DNA from: Levilactobacillus yonginensis
GTDB lineage: Bacteria > Bacillota > Bacilli > Lactobacillales > Lactobacillaceae
Assembly (NCBI RefSeq): GCF_964065165.1
Contig: NZ_OZ061549.1
Span: 1,674,001 to 1,738,000 of the forward strand
DNA: 64,000 nucleotides
Direction: 5' to 3'
Shown here: positions 26,800 to 33,402 of the stretch, piece by piece
Layout: each line of letters opens with the position of its first letter
Position numbering within the stretch: the stretch's first letter is position 1
The notes under the pieces: model-generated
What the model was told of the DNA's origin: nothing
Database searches by the model: none
The model's input: the letters and a program-made list of their open reading frames with translations, nothing else
Made by a program: the position numbers and the translations under genes

Positions 26800-26815
26800 C
26801 AGACTAGCCTACGAT
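26800..26815. repeat. 16-bp direct repeat, left copy
   Basis: CAGACTAGCCTACGAT is identical at 31320-31335, the other side of the nuclease/ATPase cassette. Confidence 0.75.
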
Positions 26816-26993: not shown

Positions 26994-27005
26994 TTAGTCG
27001 AAAAA

Positions 27006-27057
27006 TAAAGTGCCCTACGATTGTTAGACAGATAAGTCTAACAATCGTAGGGCACTT
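27006..27057. terminator. Perfect 22-bp-stem hairpin
   Basis: AAGTGCCCTACGATTGTTAG and its exact complement enclose a six-base loop, with A-rich and TCAAAA tails. It could terminate the ATPase gene 120 bases upstream on the minus strand, or be a small palindromic repeat. Confidence 0.65.
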
Positions 27058-27179
27058 CAAAATCCGGATAACGCTTTTATGACACCATAGGGGTAAGAAC
27101 TTCTACCAATCATAACTACTCGCTAGTCATACTTAGCCGCTTTCAAAAATATGACAATTAATCACTATTATTTCATATT

Positions 27180-28646
27180 CTAGTCAGGATTCGTTGTTGT
27201 ATTGTTTTCACTCAATCCTTCATTTAAATTAGACACACCATCCATTAATCCCTCATTCAAAACTATCTTAGTATCCCACTTTCGATTATATTCATAAATA
27301 CTTGCAAATATCTTTTGGTTGTTAGGAAATTCTTGATCCAGCAGTTTAAACATTCTCTGAATATTTTCTGCATCTACCTCTCCTGCCATCGGTGAATCAA
27401 CGATAATAGGAAATATTTTATCATCCTGATTCTGTACAACTTTTAAAACGGCCATTCTGTATGCAAAAACTAATAAATGTAATTTTGCACCACTATATCT
27501 CTTTAAGTCCCTAGTAAAAATAAAATCTTCATCTTTGTCAATAGTGTCCTGCACTCCCAATATTTTTGAAAATTTCACAATAGTATTATATATCTTTCTC
27601 ACTTGCTGTATCGATCCTAGACTATCCCTCTGCAAGGATTTTAATTTATTAATTTCTTTTGTATTTTCCTTAAGTGTACTTTCCATAGAATCCTGAGTAA
27701 TATTTATTTTTTCTACAGCATTATTAAATCTCCGAATTTGATCTTGATCCGAAAAAAGGCTCAATTGCTTGTTTAAATCCTTGGACATTTTGTTTTTTTG
27801 AACTATATATTCAGAAAGCTCTCTATTCTCTCTAGCTATTTGAGCCGTAATGACTGTCTGATTAAAATCAAAACCTAAAATATTCTTTTTAGATACCGGT
27901 ATGGCCTTGTTATCCACTTTAATTAATATATTCATATCATCTATTAGTTTATAAAAGCTATCATTGCTTTTAATTATTCTATCTAGTTTACTAATTTTAA
28001 GTTTCTTTTTATTTATATCCATATCAATGGAACGTATCTGATCTTGTAGCTCATCAATACTCGACCAGTTTATGTCATCTTTATTCTTTTCACTTTCCAT
28101 ATTTAAAGTAAGCAGAGTCTTTATTTGCAATAAAACCTTTCGTTCCTCTTTTTTACTATCCATTTCAATCTGTATTTTTTCTGCATCAGTATTCGATATA
28201 CCATCTAAAAGTTCTTCAATTTTAAACCGTATTTTCCCAATAACTATTCCTCTATTTAGAAGAGTCCAGCCTTTATCTTGATCAAAATATATAAGTCCCA
28301 ATAAGTTATCTGCCAATTTAGGATTTTCAGTTTCAAAAACACTTGCTAATACTTCTGTAAAATCTTCCGGCAATTTATAAGTCCTTACACTCTGACCCAT
28401 CTCAATATTAATTATTTTATCATGACGTTTTAATACCATTTCTTGATTTCTTTGTATAATTCCAATTTCCAAACTTAGCTTAGAAAAATCAATTCCTTTG
28501 GTTGAAGGAATTGGATATCCCAACGCATACAGAACCAACCGGATTAGGGAGGTTTTTCCGTGACTATTCTTTCGACTGTATATCAGGGTTGTCCCCACAT
28601 CAAACTGAAATTTTTTATCGTTAATTAATAAATAATCAATTTCCAT
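27180..28646 (-). CDS. SMC/ABC-like ATPase of a putative nuclease-ATPase defence cassette
   Basis: The 488-residue protein has a Walker A of the form RKNSHGKTS (about 26-34), a long charged coiled coil in the middle (about 150-330), an ABC-signature-like YSGAK near 398, and Walker B IFPIIVDSP followed by an H/Q-loop region. This is the head-coil-head layout of SMC/RecN-like ATPases. I see no CxxC zinc hook. Start ATG 28646 follows AAGGAGG and overlaps the end of the DUF4297-like gene by 11 bases, so both products act together. Comparable pairings occur in Lamassu and in ABC-three-component systems. Base composition is more AT-rich than the flanking core genes. Confidence 0.8.
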   Translation of the reverse strand: MEIDYLLINDKKFQFDVGTTLIYSRKNSHGKTSLIRLVLYALGYPIPSTKGIDFSKLSLEIGIIQRNQEMVLKRHDKIINIEMGQSVRTYKLPEDFTEVLASVFETENPKLADNLLGLIYFDQDKGWTLLNRGIVIGKIRFKIEELLDGISNTDAEKIQIEMDSKKEERKVLLQIKTLLTLNMESEKNKDDINWSSIDELQDQIRSIDMDINKKKLKISKLDRIIKSNDSFYKLIDDMNILIKVDNKAIPVSKKNILGFDFNQTVITAQIARENRELSEYIVQKNKMSKDLNKQLSLFSDQDQIRRFNNAVEKINITQDSMESTLKENTKEINKLKSLQRDSLGSIQQVRKIYNTIVKFSKILGVQDTIDKDEDFIFTRDLKRYSGAKLHLLVFAYRMAVLKVVQNQDDKIFPIIVDSPMAGEVDAENIQRMFKLLDQEFPNNQKIFASIYEYNRKWDTKIVLNEGLMDGVSNLNEGLSENNTTTNPD

Positions 28647-29052
28647 AGTTTAACGCCTCCTTAATATTCTTGAAATCAGAATTATTAGTAACAATTAACC
28701 AAAGAATAAATTTTGCAACATCTTTATTTCTGCTATCAGCCTCAACGTCTATTCCTAAATATGTACATATATCTCCATAATTTTTATTAACAAAGTCTCT
28801 AGCCCTATCATCTCTACTGAGACCATGGTTATGTTTTCCATAATTAAATAACAACATATTTACTTTAGAAACCACTGAAAAATCAAACGCCATCGGTTTC
28901 AAGAATTCTGAATACTGTCCTCTTATATAGTCTTCGTCATCAAAGCCAATATCAAAGAGTCTTAAAAAGTGCTCAATCTGAGATGTGCCAATCAACAATG
29001 TAGCTGCTGTATAACCTGCGATGAAGTGAACCCTTAAAGTTGGACACAGAAT

Positions 29053-29934
29053 TTACGCTGCCTTCTGGATGGCGAGTTCCCGGTATTTTTCCGGGGACTT
29101 GCCATCCAGTTTTGTTTTGATCCGACGTTTATTGTAAAAGTTAATCCAGTCAGTCATAGCTTGAGTCAAGTCTTCCTTGTTCTCAAAATGCTCATCCATA
29201 ACTTCGACCTTCATGATGTGGAAGAATGATTCAACTGCCGCATTATCTAGACAAGTTGCTTTGCGTGACATGCTTTGAAATACGCGATGTTCTTTGAGTG
29301 TTTCTCGCCAGAATTTATGTTGATACTGGAATCCCTGATCCGTGTGGACTGTTGTTCGATAACCTAACTTTGGCAGTCCTTCCAATGCTTCTCTAAGCGG
29401 CTTTAGGGCAAATTCTACTGTTGGATGGTCACTGATGTTGAAGGCTAAGACTTCGCCTGAGAAGAGGTCAATCACTGGTTCTAAATAGACCCGTTCACTT
29501 TGGCTCATACCACCGTATCGAAATTCACTGACATCTGTAACGAGTTTTTGATAGGGTCGGTCCGTTTTGAATCGTCGGTTCAACTGATTAGGCGCAATTT
29601 TACCAACGGATCCTTTGTATGAATTATATTTACGTTTTTGCCGATTGTACGCTAAACAAAGCCAATCATGCTCATGCATTAGACGCAAGACTCGTTTATG
29701 ATTCACCGTGAATCCATGCTCCTGTAAAGCTTTAGTTAGTCGCCGGTAACCATACTTCTTGGTGTACTTAGAATCTTCCTGCCGGATCTCATCGATTGCC
29801 TGAATGATTGGAGAATCATCCAGCTTTTCACGCTGACGATGTGAGCGTGCGTAATAATACGTACTTCTTGGTACTTTGACGACCTTGAGTAGGAGCTTGA
29901 TGGGCACTTGAAAGACCTGCCTTAACTCGGTCAC
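29053..29934 (-). CDS. IS3-family transposase catalytic subunit OrfB
   Basis: The 293-residue product has an HTH_21-type start (YYYARSHRQREK, YGYRRLTKAL) and an rve integrase core. The DDE residues lie in LVTDVSEF, VHTDQGFQYQ and DNAAVESFF. It begins with GTG whose first base is the last base of the orfA stop codon, the frame arrangement used by IS3 elements for -1 frameshift fusion. No damage is visible. Confidence 0.93.
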   Translation of the reverse strand: MTELRQVFQVPIKLLLKVVKVPRSTYYYARSHRQREKLDDSPIIQAIDEIRQEDSKYTKKYGYRRLTKALQEHGFTVNHKRVLRLMHEHDWLCLAYNRQKRKYNSYKGSVGKIAPNQLNRRFKTDRPYQKLVTDVSEFRYGGMSQSERVYLEPVIDLFSGEVLAFNISDHPTVEFALKPLREALEGLPKLGYRTTVHTDQGFQYQHKFWRETLKEHRVFQSMSRKATCLDNAAVESFFHIMKVEVMDEHFENKEDLTQAMTDWINFYNKRRIKTKLDGKSPEKYRELAIQKAA

Positions 29935-30464
29935 TATTTGCGAGATTTCTTGTCTGCTGACTTCTTCTGAGCTAAGGCATCGAGTTTTTTTAGGTATTCA
30001 TTCTCAATCTTTAACATCAAGTTTTCTTGTTTTAATTGCTTCAATTCATCGGCGGTACTGGAGTTATTGCGACTCTTTGAAGGCTTCGTTTGCTTATGTT
30101 TAGCCATGATTTTAGGCTTTCCTCGCTTCCGTTCAAGGCCAGCGATTCCTTGCTCCTCAAAGCGCTTCTCCCATTGCCAGATGGTGCTTGGCGAAGATAG
30201 ATTGAAGTGCAGAGCCGTTACCGGAAGCGAGGCCTGATGTTGTTTTCTCCAGTTTAATACATCAACCTTGAACTGACTAGAATATTCTGGCTTCTGATCC
30301 TTCAGCTTCAATCCAGCTATACCGTATTTCTGGAAGCGACTAACCCAAAGAAGGATAGTTTCTTCCTTGCTGATACCATGTTTTCTGGCCAATGAGGTTG
30401 ATCCAACTCCACTCAAATATTCAGTGACGACCTTAATTCTAAAATCTAAATCAAACTTAACCAT
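29934..30464 (-). CDS. IS3-family transposase OrfA (DNA-binding)
   Basis: The 176-residue protein, starting at ATG 30464, carries two helix-turn-helix motifs (SLARKHGISKEETILLWVSR and STIWQWEKRFEEQGIAGLE), a basic linker and a leucine-zipper-like coiled coil (ELKQLKQENLMLKIENEYLK). It binds the terminal repeats and partners OrfB. Confidence 0.92.
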   Translation of the reverse strand: MVKFDLDFRIKVVTEYLSGVGSTSLARKHGISKEETILLWVSRFQKYGIAGLKLKDQKPEYSSQFKVDVLNWRKQHQASLPVTALHFNLSSPSTIWQWEKRFEEQGIAGLERKRGKPKIMAKHKQTKPSKSRNNSSTADELKQLKQENLMLKIENEYLKKLDALAQKKSADKKSRK

Positions 30465-31232
30465 AGTAAAACCCCCAAGGTTGGACTTTCTGTCCAACCT
30501 TGGGGGTTCACTTCACGAAATCCTTTTTGGATATAACCTTTTTACTATCTTCTGCACTCCGATACACTAAAAACAACATAGATTTAAGCAAAGAATCATA
30601 CTTACTTAAATTAATATGTGCAGCATCCATGAATTTACGAACTTTTTTCTCAAGCTCAGATAGTTTCGTTTCATCATCATCACCTGCGTACTCAATCTTC
30701 ATTACCTTTAGTTTCGAGAAATCAATTTCACTATGCTCTAAAGTTTCATTAAATTCCTTCAATCTTTTTAACATCTTAGGCGGTAAGGAACTACTACTGT
30801 ATTTTCTATGTGGTGCATTAGCTAATTCCTGACCAGCACGCTTTCCAAACAAATAATTTGAATTAGTTAATAAAACTTCACTTTTGATACTTTCCAATCC
30901 GTAATCAACCACATCTTGTGACAACACTCTCAAAGCATCCACAATATACTCTTTATTGAACGTATCGTATGGGTTCTGTGTTTCTTTCGCTTGAATAAAC
31001 GACATTGTTCCGTCATTCCATGTCAAAACAATGTCTTCTTTTCCTTCAACCTCAAAAGATTGAACTTTATCGACATTATCTAAAAAGAGATAGAGGGCCG
31101 CCATGTCTTGAAAATTAAATCCGGCAACACCACCTGAATTGTTCGTATTCTTTGCCAATTTATAGCTCTCCTTAACTTATGTGTCAAATGGCATCATATC
31201 ACTATAGATGCCGGTAGCCACATATATCGTCT

Positions 31233-31249
31233 CATTACTTATGATATGG
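31233..31249. promoter_or_regulatory. Putative operator, copy 1
   Basis: CATTACTTATGATATGG lies upstream of the nuclease gene. It differs by one base from the copy at 31293-31309, exactly 60 bases away. Confidence 0.55.
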
Positions 31250-31292: not shown

Positions 31293-31309
31293 CATCACTT
31301 ATGATATGG
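31293..31309. promoter_or_regulatory. Putative operator, copy 2
   Basis: CATCACTTATGATATGG. The pair lies in the only intergenic gap between the HTH regulator and the nuclease gene, so it is a candidate binding site for that regulator. Confidence 0.55.
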
Positions 31310-31319
31310 TAACCTGTAT

Positions 31320-31335
31320 CAGACTAGCCTACGAT
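31320..31335. repeat. 16-bp direct repeat, right copy
   Basis: Identical to 26800-26815. It sits 15 bases before the end of the HTH regulator gene. Confidence 0.75.
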
Positions 31336-31350
31336 CAGTCCAATTAGCCA

Positions 31351-32112
31351 TCAATCTTTTTGAAAATGTATTCGCTTTTTCATAAAGATATCATGCCACT
31401 TGGTTCTATACGGAGTGGCAAAATACGATAATCGAAACCCTTGTTGATATGCTTCCTTGTAAGCCAGTAGCAAATATAAATTAATTTCATCGTCTGGGCT
31501 GACCATCTGACTGAGCTTGCTAAATGATATATTAGGCGTATTCAACTCTAGATTATTTGCTAACAATCTCAGCTCCACTTCCACCAAGTTGATGTCTCGC
31601 GCGAACAAAACCATTGCATGAAGTAATTTATCGAAAATACTTACCAACTCAGAATCTGGAATATACCTATCTCGCTTAGTTAAATCAAAATCAACTATAA
31701 CTAACTTTGGAACACTCGATAAATCTATTAAAAGATTACCAGAAAAGCTAACTCTGCGTTTCATCTCGTACTTCGTATAAACATTCACCTTACACTTACT
31801 TGAATAAACTTGATACGTAAAACTCAAACCAGAAGACTCTACATATTTCTCCAAAATTCTAAGATTAACTTCGGAAAAATTCCTTTCAAAAAATCGAGGA
31901 TTCCGCCTAACCTTAAAAATTCTGTCGAAGGGCTCATTCAAAGTTTGCGAAATAACATAAGCTTTGGTCAACATAACATTGTAACTAATATCATCTCTAA
32001 TATTAATAATTGTCTGCCGCTTAATACTAGAGCGCCTGCTAACTTCTGAAATACTCAGACCTGACTCGCTTAGCACAGTTGCTAAGTCATTCTCCACAAT
32101 AAACTTTTCCAT
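31351..32112 (-). CDS. Helix-turn-helix protein beside the nuclease/ATPase cassette
   Basis: The first 60 residues hold an XRE-like helix-turn-helix (LATVLSESGLSISEVSRRSS, then IKRQTIINIRDDIS). The remaining 190 residues match nothing I recognise. GGTGG precedes ATG 32112; GTG 32124 is an alternative. The gene is transcribed towards the cassette, separated from it by 190 bases that contain two near-identical 17-base sites, so a regulatory role over the cassette is plausible. It shares the AT-rich composition of the cassette genes. Confidence 0.72.
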   Translation of the reverse strand: MEKFIVENDLATVLSESGLSISEVSRRSSIKRQTIINIRDDISYNVMLTKAYVISQTLNEPFDRIFKVRRNPRFFERNFSEVNLRILEKYVESSGLSFTYQVYSSKCKVNVYTKYEMKRRVSFSGNLLIDLSSVPKLVIVDFDLTKRDRYIPDSELVSIFDKLLHAMVLFARDINLVEVELRLLANNLELNTPNISFSKLSQMVSPDDEINLYLLLAYKEAYQQGFRLSYFATPYRTKWHDIFMKKRIHFQKD

Positions 32113-32215
32113 TTCATTCACCACCCATCTAAATCATATACGATGAGTTAGATTTTGCATATCCAAGTAAAAATATTTACAGGGGGTTACAAGCTAAGAT
32201 TCCTAAAATTGGCCA

Positions 32216-32692
32216 CTACTGCCTAAACTTCTCCAAACGATACAATTGTTCTTCGTCAACAGCGTCACGACCATCTTTGAAGTCATAACCCATATGCTGA
32301 TAGAATTCGAGTCCCGTTATCGATGCCGGTATTTCAACCCGTTTTGCTCGCTGGAAATATGTATCTTTTTCGAGTGTCTCAATAATCAGCCGACCAATCC
32401 CTTGTCCTTGATAAGCTGGTAAGACAAAGATATCAAAGAGACTAAATTCAGTTGTACTCCCCCAATATGAACCGATAGCACCAGTACCAATGATTTTCTG
32501 GTGCTCACAGAAAACATAGAAATGGGTTTGCTTTGCCTTAGAAACAAAAAAATCAGCTGGCATTGAGCGAATTTCATTCTCAATGTATTCCTGAGAGTAA
32601 TCCTTGCTGTTTGACTCCCGGAGAGTTTTCGCCACGACACTGGCTACTGCTTCAGCATCGCTGGTTTTGAATTTTCTGACACTGATGTGCAT
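32216..32692 (-). CDS. GNAT-family N-acetyltransferase
   Basis: The 158-residue protein shows the GNAT fold: HISVRKFKTSDAEAVASV at the N-terminus, an acetyl-CoA binding loop VLPAYQGQGIGRLIIETLE (the Q-x-x-G-x-G/A pattern) and EIPASITGLEFYQHMGYDF near the end. The acceptor is unknown. It is monocistronic; no regulator is adjacent in a telling way. Confidence 0.9.
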   Translation of the reverse strand: MHISVRKFKTSDAEAVASVVAKTLRESNSKDYSQEYIENEIRSMPADFFVSKAKQTHFYVFCEHQKIIGTGAIGSYWGSTTEFSLFDIFVLPAYQGQGIGRLIIETLEKDTYFQRAKRVEIPASITGLEFYQHMGYDFKDGRDAVDEEQLYRLEKFRQ

Positions 32693-32922: not shown

Positions 32923-33402
32923 TCACTTATGGTACGGAGACCCCTCATTAATCATAAACGCCCGATAAACTTGCTCCGTCAGCACCAACCGCATCAACTG
33001 ATGAGGTAGTGTGAACCGGCCAAACGAAATCTGAGCGTCCGCACGCTTCAGAACGGCCGGCGTCAGTCCCAGTGAGCCCCCGATGACGAACGTGATGTCT
33101 GAGTGGCCGTACGTGGTCAAGTCCTTCAGTTCCTTGGCAAACTCCTCCGACGAGCGTTCCTTGCCTAAGATGGCCAATGCATAGACGTATTCGCGGTCCT
33201 TGATTTTACTCAGGATTCGTTCGCCTTCTGCCACCATGACCTGGTCCATCTCTGCCTGCGACAAATTCTCTGGTGCCTTTTCATCTGGAACTTCGACGAT
33301 TGAAAATTTACAGAACCGCGACAATCTTTTGGCGTACTCCGCGATACCCTGTTTGAAGTATTTTTCCTTCAATTTACCCACAACCACAAACTTGATGTTC
33401 AT
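32923..33402 (-). CDS. rlmH: 23S rRNA (pseudouridine1915-N3)-methyltransferase RlmH
   Basis: RlmH methylates N3 of pseudouridine 1915 in helix 69 of 23S rRNA using S-adenosylmethionine. The 159 residues match the family length exactly. The SPOUT knot is seen at [10 protein letters not shown] and the C-terminal [18 protein letters not shown]...GSPYHK is the family signature. ATG 33402 follows AGGAGG. The gene is next to a DnaA-box cluster, as its B. subtilis orthologue yydA is. Confidence 0.97.

Follow-up and report, generated by a model that had tools for sequence, protein, structure and literature searches.

The locus considered here raises the question of what two overlapping genes, one of them split by an insertion sequence (IS), do together, and whether they still do it in the genome of Levilactobacillus yonginensis. 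It lies in a stretch of 64,000 nucleotides (contig NZ_OZ061549.1, positions 1,674,001 to 1,738,000, forward strand), hereafter referred to as the window, in which all coordinates are given. An initial annotation had described the two genes, named A and B in this study, as a nuclease paired with an SMC-like ATPase, quoting EVEGKEDIVLTW...FIQAKE in A and RKNSHGKTS, YSGAK, and FPIIVDSP in B. All of these motifs were located as described, and both genes were found overlapping on the minus strand at the proposed place, with the refinement that A consists of two pieces around an IS at 29022-30515. Our results indicate that A and B very probably act as effector and sensor, respectively, in an abortive defence system of the Lamassu type comprising two genes, corresponding to the candidate PDC-M46 of the PADLOC database. 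By analogy with Lamassu, the pair is most likely a cousin of this system that lacks the zinc hook and acts against phages and plasmids.

Relation of the Gene Pair to Lamassu

Gene B (27180..28646, minus strand) is intact and encodes a hookless LmuB-like ATPase of the SMC/Rad50 type with 488 aa, as deduced from its open reading frame (ORF), PADLOC profiles, and Foldseek matches; the protein combines a head of the ABC/SMC type with a short coiled coil. Its Walker A motif SRKNSHGKT (residues 24-32; 28551..28577, minus strand, computed from the start of B) features S24, N27, G30, and K31, which are invariant in 67 aligned sequences. Among the PADLOC models, PDC-M46B matched best (1.7e-130), followed by LmuB (1.8e-21), and Pfam and NCBIfam searches of B returned no meaningful family name. 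Used as a single sequence against the PDB sequences, B gave one meaningful match, namely LmuB (9ux7_A, 1.2e-6). The profile built from the 67 sequences recovered the same chain at 1.4e-17 and the best Rad50 chain only at E 0.024, so that B was placed with PDC-M46B and LmuB and not in the housekeeping repair family that the initial annotation had considered. Profile-profile comparison with six LmuB proteins yielded a probability of 99.7% (E 1e-25, 465 columns). For the structure model of B, the first Foldseek match in the PDB was 9ux7_A, from an LmuAB-DNA complex (6.8e-13), and LmuB chains filled the top five rows. The assignment of B to the LmuB type is to be read together with a VIA-align tie with Rad50 and with the higher score of the PDC-M46B model compared to LmuB. 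The sixth Foldseek row for B was 9a6c, an integrative model of YydD-YydB from B. subtilis (9.5e-9), which may be another Lamassu-like pair.

The DS-x4-E block of Walker B was present in 28/28 M46B sequences and in all 15 LmuB rows reaching that region; two further LmuB rows (L022 and L023) end at the locus edge before the block, and its absence there is uninformative. M46B also retains a YxDQxxxW-like motif. The residue following the Walker B Asp in M46B is Ser and not Glu, the Rad50 chains having Asp-Glu at this place. LmuB proteins generally feature Gln at this position and may hydrolyse ATP slowly, according to the available part of PMC10586767 (as for the other papers cited here, the source was available in part).

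Gene A is represented by an N-terminal piece with a TTG start (30516..31158, minus strand; PDC-M46A 7.4e-36) and a C-terminal piece that the IS severed from this start (28636..29021, minus strand; PDC-M46A 1.9e-16), both recognised as ORFs. The N-terminal piece, whose frame extends a few codons into the IS and stops at 30508, contains a Cap4-type PD-(D/E)xK core with the motif E38-G-x2-D42 ... Q56-x-K58 (30985..31047, minus strand, computed from the start of A). E38, D42, Q56, and K58 are invariant in 32 aligned A proteins, and all four are kept in the window. LmuA was the second-best PADLOC model for this piece after PDC-M46A (2.4e-10). The Pfam family Cap4_nuclease matched the N-terminal piece below the Pfam cut-off (5.9e-4) and the A proteins of the related loci L037 (33 bits) and L051 above it. 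An intact A protein of 341 aa, P0121, is continuous across the IS site and matches PDC-M46A over residues 3-338 (1e-57); in P0121 and in the A proteins of L037 and L051, Pfam recognised Cap4_nuclease only, with no SAVED domain and no name for the C-terminal domain. The statement of the initial annotation that this domain is unassigned therefore holds for Pfam. At the level of structure, 9ux7, the first Foldseek match for the A model (1.1e-5; Cap4 6vm5 at 1.1e-4), aligned with its LmuA chain across residues 11-326 of the model. In the profile-profile comparison of A with LmuA, only the first 63 columns matched (94.3%, 9.8e-8). A is a nuclease of the Cap4 type whose C-terminal domain is helical.

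The pair had been regarded as a possible new variant, which proved to be half right: PADLOC-DB 2.0.0 (2023) already contains the models PDC-M46A and PDC-M46B for an uncharacterised candidate, PDC-M46. Both genes match these models across their full length and stand adjacent in the same order, the window copy alone being IS-broken. Within the literature searched, PDC-M46 was named in one paper, PMC11811056, the available part of which lists it as an unpublished candidate and describes a single locus that two tools labelled differently, one as PDC-M46 and the other as Lamassu. In an unrooted maximum-likelihood tree of 45 rows, calculated without locus L040, both of whose genes look damaged, a branch with 100/100 support set the 28 M46B rows apart from the rest, and a 100/99 branch did so for the eight two-gene LmuB rows that are paired with Cap4-type nucleases. 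As the tree is unrooted, M46 may belong within Lamassu or represent its sister.

Compared with two-gene (type I) Lamassu LmuAB (9ux7/9ux8), M46 shares the order of nuclease and ATPase, the Cap4-type core, the LmuB-like head, the YxDQxxxW and DS-x4-E motifs, the lack of LmuC, and the first Foldseek rank of LmuAB for both models, which bears out the kinship with Lamassu proposed at the outset. It differs in its ATPase: LmuB is equipped with a CxxC hook and measures 517-557 aa, whereas M46B is hookless, with a hairpin-like tip and approximately 470-500 aa. Three-gene (type II) Lamassu (LmuACB/DdmABC) likewise combines an SMC-like sensor with a nuclease effector, and its folds (9hqu, 9hqx, and 9uxh) were among the top Foldseek rows for B; however, M46 has neither the middle gene LmuC (0/27 loci) nor the hook. 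The middle component of ABC-three-component systems is also missing. The proposal of a reduced system had to be rejected. LmuC occurs in approximately 10.2% of Lamassu systems only, LmuA plus LmuB being the commoner form in the available part of PMC8565338, so that the two-gene state of M46 is no reduction; furthermore, hooked two-gene LmuAB pairs were held by seven Lactobacillales loci of the sample. Cap4 of CBASS has the same nuclease fold (6vm5; Pfam Cap4_nuclease), but CBASS was set aside in view of the missing SAVED match and the lack of a cyclase family beside the pair.

The Tip of the ATPase and the Proposed Mode of Action

The initial annotation had seen no CxxC hook in the ATPase, and this was confirmed for B and extended to its family. 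At the tip, the CxxC zinc hook was found in 0/28 M46B rows versus 17/17 LmuB rows, the LmuB labels being confirmed by PADLOC models for most of the latter. A CxxC anywhere in the protein was seen in four of the 120 listed B homologues, always at residue 66 and never at the tip. In the available part of PMC10586767, the hook at the coiled-coil tip is ascribed to many LmuB proteins, not to all. The corresponding block of B, located by alignment and structure model, comprises residues 228-262 (27861..27965, minus strand). Its length is fixed in the 67 aligned sequences (in the region 205-285, a single column has 3% gaps), and several of its positions are conserved, namely N228 (97%), I235 (82%), I256 (78%), V251 and N262 (73% each), and G258 (69%). 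The structure model predicts a helix (195-238), two strands (241-244 and 247-250), and a second helix (259-299), with a mean pLDDT (predicted local distance difference test) of 71-81 for the block. In M46B, a conserved block with a predicted beta-hairpin thus takes the place of the CxxC hook, and its coil appears shortened, M46B having a length of approximately 470-500 aa versus 517-557 aa for LmuB of the L052-L058 pairs. As judged from the model, the hairpin tip may pair two protomers without zinc or another metal.

A mode of action can be proposed by analogy with Lamassu structures, whose PDB titles refer to a 'nuclease sequestration state', an 'LmuA nuclease tetramer bound to DNA duplex', and an 'LmuAB-DNA complex'. 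Two B protomers would keep A inactive, as in the solved Lamassu (PMC10586767, available part), with the hairpin tips pairing them metal-free as the step specific to M46. Binding of B to invader DNA with an abnormal end or structure would then release A, which would oligomerise and cut DNA, so that the cell would stop. Lamassu is thought to sense invader DNA via an SMC dimer that is closed by the zinc hook in many members (PMC10586767, available part). With its head, effector, and gene order preserved but the hook replaced by a conserved hairpin-like tip, a whole family of this kind would allow the role of the hook to be addressed. No hookless M46 ATPase was described in the titles and visible abstracts of the literature searched, which did not include the main Lamassu structure papers and is no proof of absence.

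Linkage and Distribution of the Pair

In the window, the stop of A and the start of B overlap by 11 nt. The 27 M46B loci outside the window originate from one metagenome-assembled genome, eight plasmids, one phage, eight other genomes, and nine viral contigs; independent cases are fewer than 27 owing to near-copies (L036-L038, L040-L042, and L142/L148). One locus collected as a B relative (L005) encodes an ordinary hooked LmuB and was therefore counted among the LmuB rows, and L028-L031 and L032-L035 were excluded because they represent weak matches or duplicate other loci. In all 27 loci, the gene directly upstream of B is A, in agreement with the pairing originally proposed, and the overlap measures 4-29 nt in 26 of them, the exception being the damaged L040; A and B are translationally coupled. 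B is short in L148, and A is split in L040 and L043. No orthologue without its partner was found; the initial annotation had named the separate occurrence of orthologues as speaking against a system. The lack of a third gene, noted there for the window, applies to the whole family within 2 kb: among 104 neighbouring ORFs, no family occurred in more than 5/27 loci. A strong inverted repeat (AAGTGCCCTACGATTGTTAGAC...GTCTAACAATCGTAGGGCACTT, window 27020-27065) 3' of B is likely a terminator.

The occurrence of the pair is sporadic. Strong M46B matches (at least 420 bits) were detected in 8/395 genomes of the order and strong M46A matches (<1e-10) in 7/395, these being the same genomes except for G319, the A protein of which is recognised by other M46A models. 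M46B was found in 2/299 genomes of the phylum sample, one of them that of the window, and in 3/148 close relatives, again including the genome of the window. Intact M46 copies are carried on plasmids, phages, and chromosomal islands. At the DNA level, the whole stretch had no match among plasmids. The Secundilactobacillus plasmid L036 encodes a second, partial M46B-like ORF (86-619, 177 aa) beside an intact pair. Another intact pair is that of L037, which is the plasmid NZ_CP020862 of Lactiplantibacillus plantarum.

This carriage would also fit a different use of the pair, namely as a weapon between mobile elements that mainly excludes rival plasmids and phages, with host defence as a side effect. 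All eight plasmid matches belong to lactic acid bacteria, with records down to 7.6 kb, and one phage record and nine viral contigs bear the pair as well. Recombinases are its most frequent neighbours (two families in 5/27 loci each), and the pairs of L038 and L041 adjoin restriction-modification genes. We regard this explanation as possible but rather unlikely, as chromosomal pairs also occur with no recombinase in the 12 kb taken, e.g., beside valS in L048 and L050. It is, moreover, compatible with a Lamassu-type mechanism. Due to its small size, i.e., two coupled genes and plasmids down to 7.6 kb, M46 should make an easy laboratory model.

State of the System in the Window

The element splitting A belongs to the IS3 family and is 1,494 bp long (29022..30515, minus strand), with 12/12 terminal inverted repeats. 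It encodes orfA (29934-30497) and orfB (29053-29934), both on the minus strand, and is flanked by a 3-bp target-site duplication, CGA (left copy 29019..29021, right copy 30516..30518). Ten full-length copies were found in the genome, five of them at 100%, with the copy in the window included in both counts. The break looks recent, as the pieces of A are 95% (N-terminal) and 93% (C-terminal) identical to the intact P0121.

The initial annotation had mentioned the IS and had left out its effect. Since the IS cuts A between the nuclease core and the C-terminal domain, the system is most likely inactive here, and the defence system of this genome is probably dead owing to its broken effector. In total, A was damaged by an IS or by split frames in 3/28 loci (the window, L040, and L043), B being intact in two of these three. 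That the effector was lost and the ATPase retained in the window and L043 is consistent with the effector being toxic and costly, the number of cases being small.

It could be argued that the split system still functions in a smaller version, composed of the N-terminal nuclease piece and the intact B. The N-terminal piece retains all four invariant catalytic positions, and the IS is the sole lesion seen, neither piece of A having a visible stop or frameshift. However, in Lamassu the domain corresponding to the severed C-terminal part is considered to attach LmuA to the complex (PMC10586767, available part), and A is unbroken in 25/27 other loci, with the remaining two (L040 and L043) looking broken too. 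A working remnant is accordingly improbable, and an inactivated Lamassu-type system remains the preferred description of the locus. That B is a housekeeping repair ATPase of the SbcC/Rad50 type, with A as its nuclease partner, is highly improbable and was set aside on account of the patchy spread (3/148 relatives, 8/395 strong matches in the order) and the far greater sequence affinity of B to LmuB, together with its position in an AT-rich island, its Asp-Ser instead of the Asp-Glu of Rad50, the missing hook, and a PD-(D/E)xK partner in place of an Mre11/SbcD-type phosphoesterase.

The Genomic Site at rlmH

The pair had been placed between core genes, which proved only partly right: one side is formed by rlmH (32923..33402, minus strand), upstream of A, but the stretch following rlmH is hypervariable in the genus. 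In the available part of PMC6222049, rlmH is the attachment-site gene of staphylococcal and enterococcal chromosome cassettes (SCC and ECC). The att-like 3' end of rlmH (CCGTACCATAAGTGA, 32923..32937, minus strand) recurs on the minus strand at 31309 (CCATATCATAAGTGA, 31295..31309) and 31249 (CCATATCATAAGTAA, 31235..31249); no further copy with up to two mismatches occurs in the 64 kb. The module of A and B is located just beyond this att pair and not between att copies. The module and the att pair together are bracketed by the two copies of a 16-bp direct repeat (distal 26800..26815, proximal 31320..31335; ATCGTAGGCTAGTCTG on the minus strand).

Stretches of 4.4 to 15 kb following rlmH were taken from 20 of the 33 other rlmH-bearing congeners (L095-L114). 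A further att-like 15-mer was detected within two mismatches in 16/20 stretches, compared with 1.17 expected from Markov-resampled sequence, and within one mismatch in 14/20, compared with 0.08 expected. A conserved MerR/SDR flank was recognised in 10/20 stretches, and approximately 2 to 11 kb of variable content separate it from rlmH. In G031 (L098, 4439-9454) and G003 (L100, 6770-11382), the interval from rlmH to the following repeat contains genes for CcrA-, CcrB-, and Cch-like proteins. The respective NCBIfam values were 8e-161 and 1.2e-154 for CcrB, 8.6e-47 and 1.7e-50 for CcrA, and 2.5e-63 and 2.8e-56 for Cch, all under the curated cut-offs of the staphylococcal models. The recombinase family PF07508 was present in 2/35 genomes of the genus, in both cases at the rlmH site; no ccr gene was found in the window. 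Furthermore, both the core TATCATAA and the location at rlmH correspond to those of SCCmec and enterococcal ECC (PMC6222049, available part). Judging from these sequence features, the ccr-bearing inserts appear to be SCC/ECC-type chromosome cassettes residing in the genus of the window, which points to an occurrence of SCC-type cassettes outside staphylococci and enterococci; the titles and visible abstracts of the literature searched contained no report of SCC elements in lactobacilli.

Taken together, M46 may be a distinct, zinc-independent branch of Lamassu, whose protomers pair or sense DNA via the beta-hairpin tip on a shortened coil, with its cassettes being cargo of an SCC/ECC-like rlmH site in lactobacilli. 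This combined proposal is put forward tentatively. If it is true, M46 would provide a natural test of the importance of the hook in sensing by Lamassu.

The HTH (helix-turn-helix) gene between the pair and rlmH (31351-32124), for which Pfam gave HTH support only at E 0.1, was rejected as a component of the system, relatives being present in 5/35 congeners (own genome counted), the other four of which have no M46B. The AT-rich composition reported initially was confirmed, with a GC content of 0.31 over 27001-29000, whereas the remaining 1-kb blocks lying outside 27-32 kb range from 0.385 to 0.574. At the rlmH site of G011 (L108), the GNAT gene of the window (32216-32692) is found again together with the beginning of the HTH gene, and in G012 (L110) this applies to the GNAT part.

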